Shown here piece after piece: positions 3,723 through 12,354 of a stretch of DNA of 26,024 nt (within the stretch, counting starts at the first letter, position 1; each line of letters opens with the position of its first letter). This DNA comes from a virus. The position numbers and the translations under genes were made by a program. The stretch lies in the IMG/VR virus record IMGVR_UViG_3300036766_000418, positions 1 through 26,024 of that record; one strand, written 5' to 3'. The notes under the pieces were generated by a model, which worked only from the letters and a program-made list of their open reading frames with translations, made no database searches and was not told where the DNA came from.

Positions 3723-4469
3723 GTGACCGAGAACATGCTCCCCGCGACGACCCAGGGCACCGATGAGAAGCGCGGGCTGGCACTTCTCAGGGCCATCGGC
3801 CTGGACAAGTGCGCACCTGAGCAGCGCGAGCTCGCGCTAGCCATCGCGGACCGCTACGACCTCGACATGATGCTGCGGCACATCGTCATGGTCGAGGGCA
3901 AGCCGTTCATCACCCGCGACGGGCTGCTGCACATCGCCCACCGTTCCGGCGTGTTCGACGGGATCGCGGTGACGACGCCCGAGAAGGTCGACCGCTACTG
4001 GCGCTGCACCGCCACCGTCTGGCGCAAGGACATGACCCGGCCGTTCATCTACCCCGGCCGCTACCCGGCTGGCGCCAAGAACGACGAAGAGATGGGCATC
4101 AAGGTCGCCGAGTCGATGGCGCTGCGCCGTGGCTTCGACGTGTCGGCTCCCACACTTGACGAACGCTGGGCCAGCGATGACGGAGAGGTCCCCGCGACCC
4201 CCGAGCCACCCAAGGTGGCGTCCCTCTCGGAGCTCGCTCGCGCCCGCGCTACCGCCATTGAGGCCGACCAGTCCGTCCAGGATGCCCCACAGCCCGAGGA
4301 GGGCACGTTCCGGGAGGGCGCAGACGCCACCCCGGATCCTGTCGCCGCTCCTGCCCCCACCGGCTGCGGGCACGTTGCCGGTGACGGGCTCATGGCGGGC
4401 GCTGTCTGCATCCTCGACCCCCACGAGACAGGCGCGCACCGGAGCGATGGCGGGAGCTGGCCGCGATGA
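3723..4469 (+). CDS. bet: Bet/RecT-like single-strand annealing protein
   Basis: A 248-residue protein of the phage recombination protein Bet family, which anneals complementary single strands made by the partner exonuclease. The family core is clear: CAPEQRELALAIADRYDLDMMLRHIV, then VEGKPFITRDGLLHIAHRSG (57-76), the WRCTATVWRKD strand (93-103), and the AESMALRRGFDV helix (129-140). GTG 3723 directly follows the exonuclease stop. The ribosome binding site AAGGAGG lies at 3710-3717. The linker from about 155 to 210 is acidic and disordered. The last 37 residues carry a small Cys/His-rich tail (Cys-Gly-His, Cys-Ile-Leu, His-Glu-Thr-Gly-Ala-His, Gly-x-Trp). This tail may bind zinc and could recruit SSB or host factors, which is inference. 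Confidence 0.9.
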   Translation: MTENMLPATTQGTDEKRGLALLRAIGLDKCAPEQRELALAIADRYDLDMMLRHIVMVEGKPFITRDGLLHIAHRSGVFDGIAVTTPEKVDRYWRCTATVWRKDMTRPFIYPGRYPAGAKNDEEMGIKVAESMALRRGFDVSAPTLDERWASDDGEVPATPEPPKVASLSELARARATAIEADQSVQDAPQPEEGTFREGADATPDPVAAPAPTGCGHVAGDGLMAGAVCILDPHETGAHRSDGGSWPR

Positions 4470-5464
4470 CGACCGAACCAGAGCTGGTGCTGTTCCCGGA
4501 GGACGAGACGCCCTACGACCCGGTCGGGTCCATCACGGTCCCGGCGCGGGATCTCCTGCGCGCCCTCGTCGCGGTCGTCCACGCGGCGAGCACCGACGAC
4601 GACCGGCCGATCCTGGCGTCTGTAGCCATCCAGCCACGCGAGGCCGCCGACGCGGTGCGCCTCGTGGCGACGGACAACTACCGCATTGCGATGTGCGAGG
4701 TCGACGCCGACCTCGACGATGCCGGCGACTGGCGTGGGCGCGTCCCGGCTGCGCTCGAGGACGTGAAGCGGCTGATCGTGGTCCTGAAGTCCATCCCTGA
4801 CGTCAAGGCCGATACCTGCTCGACACGGGTGGTCCTGACCCTTGGTCGGCAGAACCTGGGGAGCGAGGTCGACGGTCCACGCCGGCTGGACGCGTTCGTC
4901 GACGACGACACCCCGATCGCCCGCCTCCCGTTGCGGGTGATCGACGGGATCTATCCCGACGTTGGGCTCGTCATCCCGCGCGACGCCGAGCACGTCGGGG
5001 CGTTCACCGGCAAGTACCTGGCCGAGGCCGCGCGGTTCGCGGGCGAGTTCGGGACGGCGGGCATCGTCCTCCAGTCCCGGTCCGACAAGGGCGCGACGGG
5101 GCCGTTCGTCTTTCGGAGTGATCGGTTCACCGAGATCGTCATGCCGGTCAAGACCGGCGAGGACCTCGGCCGCCAGGTGGCCGAGGCGATGGTGGACGCG
5201 GCCGAGTCCGACGCGGACATCACCGCCCCCCTGCGCGAGCTCGCCGAGAGCATGGGGACCGACATCACCATCGAGGCGCACGGGCGCACCGCCACCATCC
5301 ACGGCCGCAAGGTGGATACCGACACGGGCGAGATCCTCCCATCGAGCGACGTGGACGCATGGACGCCTTCGCCCGCGCCCTGCGTCCGGGACGGGGAGCA
5401 CTGCGCGACACACAACGCGCCCTGGCCTAACGAGGCGAAGGCCTGCTGGGCGGTGCCGCGGTGA
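4466..5464 (+). CDS. Phage DnaN-like sliding clamp
   Basis: A 332-residue protein resembling the bacterial beta clamp. Its opening strand-helix (SITVPARDLLRALVAVVHAA, from residue 22) and the segment DDDRPILASVAIQP...VRLVATDNYRIAM match domain I of DnaN. Later DAEHVGAFTGKYLAEAARFAG and FVFRSDRFTEIVMPVKT match the last domain, where host DnaN ends in a similar strand (the LLMPVR type). It is slightly shorter than host clamps (about 370) and appears to have a compressed middle domain. After the clamp it continues with about 60 residues ending in a Cys/His-rich tail (CVRDGEHCATHNAPW...C). It overlaps bet by 4 nt. It probably tethers a polymerase or recombination enzymes to phage DNA. Whether it forms a ring by itself is unknown. 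Confidence 0.8.
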   Translation: MTTEPELVLFPEDETPYDPVGSITVPARDLLRALVAVVHAASTDDDRPILASVAIQPREAADAVRLVATDNYRIAMCEVDADLDDAGDWRGRVPAALEDVKRLIVVLKSIPDVKADTCSTRVVLTLGRQNLGSEVDGPRRLDAFVDDDTPIARLPLRVIDGIYPDVGLVIPRDAEHVGAFTGKYLAEAARFAGEFGTAGIVLQSRSDKGATGPFVFRSDRFTEIVMPVKTGEDLGRQVAEAMVDAAESDADITAPLRELAESMGTDITIEAHGRTATIHGRKVDTDTGEILPSSDVDAWTPSPAPCVRDGEHCATHNAPWPNEAKACWAVPR

Positions 5465-8778: not shown

Positions 8779-8924
8779 CTGCACCGCCGCGCCGGCCGGT
8801 CGATCCGATCGTGCTCGCCCTGGCGGCCGCCATCCGGGAGATCGCTGCCCGCCAGGCAACCGAGCGAGCCGCCCGGCGCGCTACGCTACGACTCGTGGAA
8901 GGCAAGCGAGGCGAGGCTGCGTGA
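8775..8924 (+). CDS. Small helical protein before the integrase
   Basis: A 49-residue protein from GTG 8775 (GTGA overlap). After VTAPPRRPVDP it is a single Ala/Arg/Glu amphipathic helix (ALAAAIREIAARQATERAAR) with a basic end. The integrase gene overlaps its stop by 4 nt. No family was recognised. Its size and position next to the integrase would also suit a recombination cofactor, but nothing in the sequence proves that. Confidence 0.5.
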   Translation: MTAPPRRPVDPIVLALAAAIREIAARQATERAARRATLRLVEGKRGEAA

Positions 8925-10465
8925 ACCGGCTCCCGGGATCCGTCGACGACCTCCGCGGTCTCCGCGCCGCCCGCTGGGTTCGTGAGTCGACCGCCGGCCA
9001 GTTCGATCGATACGGCCCGGACGCTCAGCGCGAGCTGCAGAATGTCTCAATCCGTCGACTCGGCCTCGTCGACACCGGCCTCGAGTGGTCGGCGGCGCAG
9101 TCGGGTTCGACCGTCCACTCATCGCCGGCAATGCAGGCGATGCTCGCAGCCGCCCGGGCGAGCGAGTTCGACCTCCTCGTCGTCGGCTACGTCGCTCGCT
9201 GGCAGCGCAACCTGCGCCAGACGCTCAACCTCCTCGAGGAGGACCTTCACCCGGCCGGCGTCGCGGTCTGGTTCGCCGACGAGGAGCTCCTCTCCTCGAA
9301 CGAGCGCCACTGGGACCAGCTCGTCGACGAGGCGAAGGGCGCCGATTCCTGGCTCCGCAAGCACCGCCGGCGCGTCCGTGAGGGCCTCGCCGCGAAGCGC
9401 AGCGTCAAGCACGACCCGGGCGGTCGCCCGCCGATCGGGTTCCGCCGAGATCCGGAGACGAAGCTCGTCATCCCCGACGAGGCGATGCTCCCGGTCGTCC
9501 GTCGCGCCTTCGAGCTCGCCGGGGCGCGGCTGACCGATCGCGAGGTCGCCGCGGCGACCGGCCTCGGGCTCTTCACGGTCCGAGGCATCCTCACGAGCCC
9601 GCTGTACGTCGGCCGGCTCCGCACCGGGGAGCGCGCCCATTGGGCCCCGGTCGTCGACGTCATGCTCTGGGAGACCGTCCAGGCGGTCCGAGCGCGCCGG
9701 CGGACCCGCGACGGCCGACCCGGCATCCGGCGGCCCTACGCGCTGACGATGCTCCACTGTGCAAGCTGCGGGCGGCACCTGATCGGCGACACCGGCCGGT
9801 ACCGTCATCCCGAACCCTGCGAGGCGTTCACCGCGGTCCACCGCGAGCCGCGCCGCCGGCTCCGTGGCCAGCGCGTCGGCATGCCCGGGCACAGCTACCG
9901 CGCCGACGAGTACGAGGCGATCGTCCGGGACCTCCTCGACGCCGTCTCGGCCCGCGCTGACCTGGTTGCCGATGTCGTCGCCCTCACCCGGGCGCCGGCG
10001 TCCGACCAGCTCGCCCTGGTCCGGATCGGTCGTGAACGCGATGCGGCGCTCGCCCGGTATCGACGGGTCCGGGATGCACGCAGCCTCGAGACGACGATGG
10101 CCGCGCTCGACGAGCAGGAGGCGGCAGCGCACGCCGCTGGGCCCGAGCCGATGGCCGCGGCCGACGTCGTCGAGCACTTGCGGAACCTGCCAGGCGTCTG
10201 GGACGCCGCGCCGGCGTCACGTCGAGGGATCGCCGAGTCGCTCTTCGAGCGGATCGATGTCCTGGGACTCCGGAAGATGCGTATCGCGCCGACCGAGGCG
10301 GCGATCGCTCGTGGCCTCGCCGAGGCGTTTTCGAGCGCATCTGCTGGTTATGGTCGGGGCGAGAGGAGTTGCGCCTCCGGTACCCGGCAGATCAGGGGCT
10401 GTCTCGTCTCGTTCGACATGCCGCCAGCCCCGCTGGCCCGAGCCGCACGGATCCGCTCCGCGTGA
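8921..10465 (+). CDS. int: Large serine recombinase (phage integrase)
   Basis: A 514-residue serine integrase that joins attP to attB through a Ser-DNA intermediate. The catalytic motif is RWVRESTAGQFDRYGPDAQ, with nucleophile Ser23 and Arg21. The resolvase domain continues with LLVVGYVARWQRNLRQTLNLLEE and ends near 160 in the long helix WLRKHRRRVREGLAAKR. The recombinase domain follows, with GRPPIGFR, AGARLTDREVAAATGL and ILTSPLYVGRL. A zinc ribbon at about 278-300 has CASC and a later Cys, with the fourth Cys not obvious. A coiled-coil-like segment lies at about 350-410. The start is GTG 8921, overlapping the preceding stop. In a prophage its expression could depend on the early promoter, because no separate promoter is seen. 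Confidence 0.92.
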   Translation: MNRLPGSVDDLRGLRAARWVRESTAGQFDRYGPDAQRELQNVSIRRLGLVDTGLEWSAAQSGSTVHSSPAMQAMLAAARASEFDLLVVGYVARWQRNLRQTLNLLEEDLHPAGVAVWFADEELLSSNERHWDQLVDEAKGADSWLRKHRRRVREGLAAKRSVKHDPGGRPPIGFRRDPETKLVIPDEAMLPVVRRAFELAGARLTDREVAAATGLGLFTVRGILTSPLYVGRLRTGERAHWAPVVDVMLWETVQAVRARRRTRDGRPGIRRPYALTMLHCASCGRHLIGDTGRYRHPEPCEAFTAVHREPRRRLRGQRVGMPGHSYRADEYEAIVRDLLDAVSARADLVADVVALTRAPASDQLALVRIGRERDAALARYRRVRDARSLETTMAALDEQEAAAHAAGPEPMAAADVVEHLRNLPGVWDAAPASRRGIAESLFERIDVLGLRKMRIAPTEAAIARGLAEAFSSASAGYGRGERSCASGTRQIRGCLVSFDMPPAPLARAARIRSA

Positions 10466-10681: not shown

Positions 10682-10700
10682 AGGCGGTAGCTAACCGCCT
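10682..10700. repeat. Palindromic stem after the integrase/HTH genes
   Basis: AGGCGGT (10682-10688) and ACCGCCT (10694-10700) are perfect complements around the 5-nt loop AGCTA. The centre includes an inverted GGTTAGCT word like the switch operators. No T-tract follows, so it is not a usual terminator. It sits in the 284-nt stretch 10675-10958 that otherwise holds only the tRNA, just after the integrase, where serine-integrase attP sites commonly lie. Confidence 0.5.
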
Positions 10701-10795
10701 CCGTCGCAGCTACCGTCTTGGCTGCATGGCTCTCTCCTCCCTCCACGCCGCGGGATCCGTCGCCAAGGACGCGGCGGCGGGTCCCGGGTCGCCTT

Positions 10796-10870
10796 CGCCC
10801 CTTGGCGCAGCGGCAGCGCGTCGGGCTCATACCCCGAAGGCCGTCGGTTCGAGTCCGACAGGGGCAACCA
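10796..10870 (+). tRNA. tRNA with CAT anticodon, initiator-like (fMet)
   Basis: A full cloverleaf is present. The acceptor is CGCCCCT with AGGGGCA. The D stem is GCGC/GCGC with a 7-nt loop. The anticodon stem is TCGGG/CCCGA with loop CTCATAC (anticodon CAT, 10828-10830). The variable loop is AGGCC, the T stem GTCGG/CCGAC with TTCGAGT, the discriminator A, and CCA is encoded at 10868-10870. Position 1 (C) faces position 72 (A) unpaired, and the anticodon stem has three consecutive G:C pairs. Both are hallmarks of bacterial initiator tRNA. The C11:G24 pair is less initiator-like. Elongator Met or tRNA-Ile2 remain alternatives. Confidence 0.92.
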
Positions 10871-10958
10871 CCGACTGGCAAGCCCACCCGCCCATCGCCT
10901 GCCCGGTTCCGACGGGACGGTCCGCATCCGCCGTCACTTCCCCGGCGTCCGGGAGGTG

Positions 10959-11171
10959 ATGCCCGGTGCTGAGCCGGACGATGGCAGCGCGCCAGCCGTA
11001 AGCATCCGCTCCATGGTCCTCGACCACGATCGCAAGATCGACGGGTTGCTCGCCTGGCGGAGCGAGATCCGCGGAGCGCTCGGCCTCATGAAGGTCGCCT
11101 TCGGTGCGTCGATCCTCAGCGCGGTCGTGTCGATTCTTGCGGTCGCCCAGATGATGGGTGGGACGCGATGA
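10959..11171 (+). CDS. Small membrane protein, XhlA/holin-like
   Basis: About 70 residues from ATG 10959; GTG 10956 or ATG 11013 are alternatives. The upstream GGGAGG is very close to the first two, so the start is unsure. After a polar N-terminus comes VLDHDRKIDGLLAWRSEIRGALG, a short amphipathic or coiled region, then the transmembrane segment VAFGASILSAVVSILAVAQM. This layout resembles hemolysin XhlA-type accessory holins. It opens the gene group that includes a peptidase and a larger holin-like protein, which supports a lysis role. Confidence 0.6.
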   Translation: MPGAEPDDGSAPAVSIRSMVLDHDRKIDGLLAWRSEIRGALGLMKVAFGASILSAVVSILAVAQMMGGTR

Positions 11172-11212
11172 GCGCGACCGAGATCCGGTATCGGACGGGA
11201 CGGGAGCCGTGA
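11168..11212 (+). CDS. Possible 14-residue coupled ORF
   Basis: ATG 11168 overlaps the preceding stop (ATGA). The 14-codon frame (MSATEIRYRTGREP) ends at 11212 with a TGA overlapped by the GTG start of the peptidase gene. It contains GACGGGAGCC just before that GTG, so it may serve as a leader that carries ribosomes to the peptidase start. The peptide itself has no recognised feature. Confidence 0.3.
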   Translation: MSATEIRYRTGREP

Positions 11213-12354
11213 GCACGCAGCCGTTCCCGACCGGCGCCCTGCCGACACCACCCGAGAAGCTGGCACTCGGCTGGCCGATCACCCTCGCCCTTGCAGCGGC
11301 CCCCACTGCCGCGCCGGCGAAGTTCCACCACCCCGGGTGCGGCCCGACGCTCAACCAGCTCCCCTACGGGGCCTGCGTCGGGATGGCCGTGACCAACATC
11401 CACGCCGCCCAGGAATTCGCCGACGAGGGCCGGCAGCTCCTCCCGAACGTGCTGGATGCGCTCCGGTTGTACGCCGACTCCAAGGGCCTCCCATGGCCCG
11501 CGACCGGGCAGGGCTGGGATCCCGTCGAGGGGACCTGGCCGGCGCTCGTGCTCGCCCATGCGAAGGCGCGGGGGATCCCGACACAGGACGGATCACCTCC
11601 GCGCCGGATCGCCGCGTACTACCTGCTCGGCGTGCCTGACGGGTCGGCGGCGTTCCTCGACCTCTACCAGCGGACCCTCATGGAGCTCGGGCCGGTCCTG
11701 CTCTCCACCGTGTGGCCGTGGAACTGGTTCAGCGTCCTCGCCGGCGGGTTCATGCAGCCGCCCGACCTGTCCCGCCCGCCATCGGGTCATGCGTTCGAGG
11801 CGTGCGGCTGGCAAGTGGGGTGCGCTCAGGCCGTGCCCGGGTGCTCGTGGGACCTCATCGCTCATCAGAGCTGGGGACCGTGGGGCAAGGATCCCGAGTG
11901 CCCGGACCACTTCCGGGTCCACTCGCACCACCTCGCGATGGTCGGGCGCGAGGCGTGGGAGTCGATCGACATCACGGGCGACGCCCCGGCACCAAAGCCA
12001 GCCCCGGAGGACACGATGACACTGCCGATCCATGACCCGGCCCCGAAGCACCAGCTCGTTGACATCGCCGTCGGGACGCAGCTCTACGCCGTCGACGGCA
12101 AGACGCCGCTCGTCAAGTTGAGTTCGGGCGGGACCGGGATCCAGAGCCCGTTCGCGACGAGCGCAACGCAGCGCCTCGTCCGGGTGAGCGTCGGCGGGGT
12201 CATCCAGGGCGCGATCGCCGCGCTCGCCGCCTGCAAGAACCTCCGGCCGATCAGCACGCCGGCGGATCCCACGGCGGCCGCCGCGGCCGAGGCCAAGGGT
12301 GCTCGGGCCGTGAAGCAAGCGGCGATCGACGAAGCACTGTTGCACGGAGGGTAG
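11209..12354 (+). CDS. Papain-like (C1-type) cysteine peptidase
   Basis: A 381-residue protein from GTG 11209 (GTGA overlap). The papain fold is visible: NQLPYGACVGMAVTNIHAAQ has the oxyanion Gln50 and nucleophile Cys56, SGHAFEACGW has His194, and LIAHQSWGPWGKD is the segment that in papain reads Asn-Ser-Trp-Gly. Here Gln220 replaces the usual Asn. The first 40 residues are Pro/Ala-rich, without a clear cleaved signal. Residues after 275 form a separate beta-rich part (HQLVDIAVGTQLYAVDG) with an Ala-rich tail that could bind the cell wall or another target. Followed by a holin-like gene, it is the best endolysin candidate in the window. A virion-associated or maturation peptidase is an alternative. 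Confidence 0.75.
   Translation: MSTQPFPTGALPTPPEKLALGWPITLALAAAPTAAPAKFHHPGCGPTLNQLPYGACVGMAVTNIHAAQEFADEGRQLLPNVLDALRLYADSKGLPWPATGQGWDPVEGTWPALVLAHAKARGIPTQDGSPPRRIAAYYLLGVPDGSAAFLDLYQRTLMELGPVLLSTVWPWNWFSVLAGGFMQPPDLSRPPSGHAFEACGWQVGCAQAVPGCSWDLIAHQSWGPWGKDPECPDHFRVHSHHLAMVGREAWESIDITGDAPAPKPAPEDTMTLPIHDPAPKHQLVDIAVGTQLYAVDGKTPLVKLSSGGTGIQSPFATSATQRLVRVSVGGVIQGAIAALAACKNLRPISTPADPTAAAAAEAKGARAVKQAAIDEALLHGG

Follow-up and report, generated by a model that had tools for sequence, protein, structure and literature searches.

The window analysed here, a 26,024-nucleotide stretch of an IMG/VR virus record, carries genes for a YqaJ recombinase, a phage-encoded DNA polymerase III beta-clamp-like protein (PF02767, positions 4466-5464), a serine integrase with a Resolvase domain (8921-10465, plus strand), a terminase, a portal, a capsid and a tape measure protein. 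The phage origin assumed in the sequence-only reading of this DNA was thus right. A single tRNA gene was called by ARAGORN, a tRNA-Met(cat) at 10796-10870 on the plus strand. It is preceded by the integrase and a small HTH gene, and followed by a small ORF and then the late genes (holin, lysin and terminase). A strong hairpin (-35 kcal/mol, z -2.8) is predicted just 5' of the tRNA, at 10746-10791 on the plus strand. A search for sigma-70-type promoters and for terminators near the tRNA was negative, although Chloroflexota and phage promoters may differ. The search yielded no relatives of the protein encoded by ORF 11158-12354. On the reverse strand of the tRNA (10691-10927, minus strand) an open frame reads SNRRPSGYEPDALPLRQGA, and spurious protein annotations are likely to arise from there.

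The tRNA gene comprises 75 nt including the encoded CCA. It matches the Rfam tRNA model RF00005 over its full length with 64.0 bits (E 5.7e-12), while the likely host's own initiator reaches 62.4 bits under the same model. The 5' side of the acceptor stem, CGCCCCT (10796-10802), starts with C1 (10796), which is mismatched with A72 (10866). After TG follows the D arm, with GCGC on the 5' side (10805-10808), the loop AGCGGCA and GCGC on the 3' side (10816-10819); pair 11:24 is C:G here (10806/10818). A single G leads into the anticodon arm TCGGG-CTCATAC-CCCGA (10821-10837), which holds the CAT anticodon at 10828-10830, a C at base 38 (10832) and three G:C pairs at 29-31/39-41 (10823-10825 with 10833-10835). 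AGGCC connects it to the T arm GTCGG-TTCGAGT-CCGAC (10843-10859), and the gene ends with AGGGGCA, the discriminator A73 and the CCA (10867-10870, with CCA at 10868-10870). The anticodon, the unpaired C1/A72, the three G:C pairs and the encoded CCA had all been read from the letters before, and each was found again at these positions. For the isolated RNA the predicted minimum-energy structure is another fold. The host initiator misfolds likewise, so that this prediction is weak counter-evidence.

The closest relatives of the integrase in genomes are found in Chloroflexi MAGs (72% for L031). The likely host is therefore a Chloroflexota bacterium, an assignment made via these integrase relatives rather than by direct linkage. 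For this host class, a set of 38 initiator copies (12 distinct) was compared. They contain the D arm GAGC-AGCGGCA-GCTC or nearly so, the pair A11:U24, the anticodon arm TCGGG-CTCATAA-CCCGA with the three G:C pairs, an encoded CCA and a variable position 1 opposite A72. The window tRNA is identical to the commonest of these at 60 of 75 positions, with equal length and an equal D loop. Identity is at most 47 of 75 with the host-class elongator Met tRNAs and at most 49 with the remaining tRNAs of 75 nt in one host genome. The position weight matrices gave 64.5 for the initiator and 14.0 for the elongator Met.

The determinants of formylation point in the same direction. The main determinant of the formyltransferase is the 1-72 mismatch (C1-A72), and A73, G2:C71, C3:G70 and G4:C69 are minor ones (PMC9976931). 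The window tRNA displays the bacterial initiator features, i.e. the CAU anticodon, the lack of a Watson-Crick pair at 1:72 and the three G:C pairs at 29-31/39-41, and of the secondary determinants A73, G2:C71 and C3:G70 are all present. G4:C69, a secondary determinant in E. coli and a minor element there, is absent and replaced by C4:G69. The purine11:pyrimidine24 pair, usual but secondary, has been substituted by C11:G24; it is also missing in a CAT tRNA of Bordetella phage PHB04. Since the major determinants are present, the tRNA was filed as an initiator, and because of 11:24 as a variant one. An elongator Met identity was rejected, as the host elongator (GGCGGAG...CTCCGCT) has a paired 1:72 and a different anticodon stem. 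A tRNA-Ile2, in which CAT would be read with lysidine, was rejected on account of the unpaired 1:72; the host tRNA-Ile (TAT) aligns to the window tRNA with a score of 4 (that host genome yielded no Ile2 gene for direct comparison). The formylmethionine classification proposed from the letters is hence supported by direct comparison with host-class tRNAs, and the two outcomes named there as refuting it, elongator Met and Ile2, both fit poorly. Both its ancestry and its main determinants, read from sequence, make the window tRNA an initiator. A base-call error at position 1 or 72, the other reservation raised, is unlikely because C opposite A is the very state most often seen in the host.

The tRNA could nevertheless work partly or mainly in elongation, where C11:G24, a C:G pair as in host elongators, could permit the binding of EF-Tu. 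At 1:72, a weak A:U or U:A pair occurs in many phage CAT tRNAs that have the three G:C pairs. However, elongation is blocked mainly by the C1×A72 mismatch, which the window tRNA has together with an initiator-type anticodon arm and a low similarity to elongator Met. Such a role is therefore quite improbable.

Fifteen differences separate the window tRNA from the commonest host sequence. Twelve of these positions make up six base pairs (4:69, 5:68, 6:67, 7:66, 11:24 and one pair of the T stem), in all six of which both sides were altered and the pairing was kept. The remaining three concern the unpaired bases A38C, U47C and A59G. As none of the 15 differences breaks the fold, the gene looks maintained, and the compensated pattern is, judged from the alignment, the trace expected of selection for a functional tRNA. 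A pseudogene was rejected by these compensated changes together with the covariance model score (64.0 versus 62.4 for the host).

Two of the departures from host initiators, the C:G at 11:24 and the C at base 38, had not been mentioned in the sequence-only reading. The pattern GCGCG followed by TCGGGCTCATANCCCGA was used as a marker of the C11:G24 form. It was found in none of 400 Chloroflexota genomes. A slightly wider version, run without a positive control, was likewise absent from the 149 genomes searched in a second group (the phylum to which an Actinomycetes MAG belongs). Ten other IMG/VR contigs contain the pattern. For base 38, 101 host-class genomes were searched: the initiator arm with A38 occurs in 74, one copy each; an initiator arm with a base other than A at this position was found in 0 of these 101 genomes and in 0 of the 149 genomes of the second group. 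In IMG/VR, arms without A38 are present in 65 stretches, 44 of them tRNA-like (40 with T38 and four with C38), next to at least 105 tRNA-like copies with A38. Outside the window, the combination of C38 and C1×A72 was found in IMG/VR only in the identical L004 and L005. L006 from the same collection has the same C38 arm, but as part of a partial tRNA at the start of a contig. The U38 (T38) tRNAs, about 40 phage-borne CAT tRNAs in IMG/VR (loci L069-L128), combine this base with three G:C pairs, and at 1:72 most of them form a weak U:A or A:U pair. They are possibly a distinct phage class, and not all of them may be initiators.

The view that a phage-borne initiator is uncommon holds as a rate, but such tRNAs were already known: with the host initiator as BLAST query, 380 of 50,697 phage records match, some of which are host contamination, and tRNA-fMet genes have been annotated in Caulobacter phage CcrSC and Stenotrophomonas phage vB_Sm_QDWS359. 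The plasmid and phage BLAST matches of the window tRNA itself (about 80% over most of the length) are mostly ordinary bacterial initiators. As a gene, the window tRNA is of an ordinary kind, but the variant is unusual. With the Chloroflexota chromosomal initiators (e.g. L057 and L058) it shares the length, the D loop, C1×A72, G2:C71, C3:G70, the three G:C pairs, CAT, A73 and CCA. These chromosomal genes contain A11:U24 and A38, in contrast to the C11:G24, the C38, the flipped pairs 4-7/66-69 and the one altered T-stem pair of the window. The tRNA-fMet genes of vB_Sm_QDWS359 and of Variovorax phage VBv52 are, like the window tRNA, phage-borne and of the initiator type with C1×A72; that of CcrSC is also of this type, but has T1 at its 5' end. 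Unlike the window tRNA, all three have kept A11:U24 and A38, and their hosts are Proteobacteria. An unannotated CAT tRNA of Bordetella phage vB_BbrM_PHB04 (L359) provides a known precedent for C11:G24, which it combines with C1×A72 and three G:C pairs just as in the window. It differs in its A38 and in its acceptor and T stems, and it belongs to a larger phage (94 kb) of another phylum. Finally, over 55 nt covering the D and anticodon arms, the CAT tRNAs of the IMG/VR phages L073 (2413-2487) and L104 (12475-12549) share 92.7% identity with the window tRNA, including C11:G24, whereas their 1:72 is a paired A:T and their base 38 is a T. No protein similarity of these two phages to the window phage was found. 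The likeness of the tRNAs without shared proteins possibly reflects transfer or convergence. Whether phage initiators generally have an altered base 38 was also tested, and such a rule is unsupported: A38 has been kept in all compared CAT tRNAs of the phage collection but one (T38 in Aeromonas phage avDM5).

The conserved 3' end of the neighbouring integrase gene contains a putative attP core of 17 nt, TGGTCGGGGCGAGAGGA (10351-10367, plus strand), the reverse complement of the 3' end of the host tRNA-Pro(CGG). Because of these 17 nt, the attachment site is most likely tRNA-Pro(CGG), and the enzyme, a serine integrase of the Resolvase family, seems to use the 3' end of that gene as its insertion point. 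In L031, L033, L038 and the viral contig L025, a complete tRNA-Pro(CGG) forms the end of the integrase gene, and the prophage relatives end at this same sequence. The window is continuous through the putative attP, as expected of a free phage. Few serine integrases are known to target a tRNA through such a block of identity. More distant relatives of the integrase adjoin tRNA-Arg(CCG) in other MAGs. The initiator tRNA as attachment site or its remnant was rejected, since it lies about 430 bp beyond the site with tRNA-Pro(CGG) as the target.

The tRNA is absent from the phages with related integrases (L022, L023, L024 and L027), and where comparable the order of the next genes is the same (L027). 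The stretch just 3' of the tRNA (10874-10906, plus strand) can still be made out in these relatives, in L024 as 33 nt at 85%. The tRNA thus fills a variable slot within an intergenic region that is otherwise shared. A conserved element ACTGGCRAGC...GCCCGG, 3' of hairpins, lies between the HTH gene and the next ORF in all four relatives and at 10874-10940 in the window; in L022 it occurs with a promoter-like site TTGACA-17-TAGTAA. This element may be a structured late leader. The gene might be a mere passenger, a host tRNA acquired by accident or as a remnant of an attachment site, and both its short distance from the putative site and its absence in relatives would fit such a history. It is improbable, as the stem changes are all compensated, the gene is complete with its CCA and the attachment site is another tRNA. 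The record is a metagenomic contig, and in principle an assembly join or a contig end could have placed a host tRNA beside phage genes. This can hardly be the case, since the tRNA lies in the middle of the contig with phage genes on both sides, its 3' flank matches the intergenic region of relatives without a tRNA, and the tRNA itself is absent from every host genome searched. The data come from one contig, and the search found no other one that carries the window tRNA.

Taken as a functional phage initiator tRNA derived from a Chloroflexota host initiator, the gene would supplement or replace the product of the host's single gene; the probability of this reading is put at roughly 0.78. The tRNA is probably charged with Met, formylated and delivered to the ribosomal P site. 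Loss of G4:C69 and R11:Y24 may lower the efficiency of formylation compared to the host tRNA. Given its place after the integrase/HTH genes and before the holin-lysin-terminase genes, the gene would perhaps be transcribed at the start of the late region. Its product would add to or replace the single host initiator while the phage is expressed, to the presumed benefit of the phage, and would probably keep protein synthesis starting during infection. Its absence in related phages implies that it is dispensable in the family. The many overlapping starts of the phage messages, which had been put forward as favouring such a tRNA, are usual among phages and no specific evidence for an initiator function.

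The initiator is needed for every protein and is apparently encoded by one gene in the likely hosts, which makes it an efficient target for abortive defence. According to the passage of PMC4105405 that cites Winther and Gerdes 2011, the VapC toxins of the enteric bacteria Shigella and Salmonella cut tRNA-fMet between A38 and C39. A VapC from Bosea also acts on tRNA-fMet, and extra initiator genes rescue partially (PMC8522696). Changes in the anticodon loop of phage tRNAs may block VapC, and phages mostly avoid encoding tRNA-fMet where it is the target (van den Berg et al. 2023, PMC10264068). The window tRNA resembles the tRNAs of that study in being altered at a published cut site of an anticodon nuclease; in contrast to those phages, the window phage encodes the initiator itself. 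Since base 38, a C in the window, lies at the published A38|C39 cut, resistance to host nucleases is possible. The replacement of a host tRNA cut by defence nucleases, one of the roles put forward in the sequence-only reading, becomes somewhat more credible through this A38C change. It may tentatively be suggested that infection triggers VapC-type toxins of the host, which cut the host initiator at A38/C39 while the phage C38 escapes. Such a nuclease-resistant replacement is compatible with the functional phage initiator and would give it a purpose. In its favour are the A38 arm of the host class, the 4-19 PIN-domain genes per host genome, the published phage precedents and the recurrence of arms without A38 in IMG/VR. 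Against it, nearly all sampled Met tRNAs of the phage collection and the A38 copies of IMG/VR have kept this base, no host VapC that targets the initiator tRNA is known here and a single change, A38C, could be drift. That one resistant phage tRNA would rescue all protein synthesis from a toxin cutting the single host initiator at this site is somewhat more doubtful still.

In the evolution of this initiator, C1×A72 and the three G:C pairs have been kept, while 11:24, base 38 and the lower acceptor stem have been released. Because this phage tRNA is intact in its initiator hallmarks but altered at the known VapC site, whether phages protect translation initiation becomes a directly testable question.
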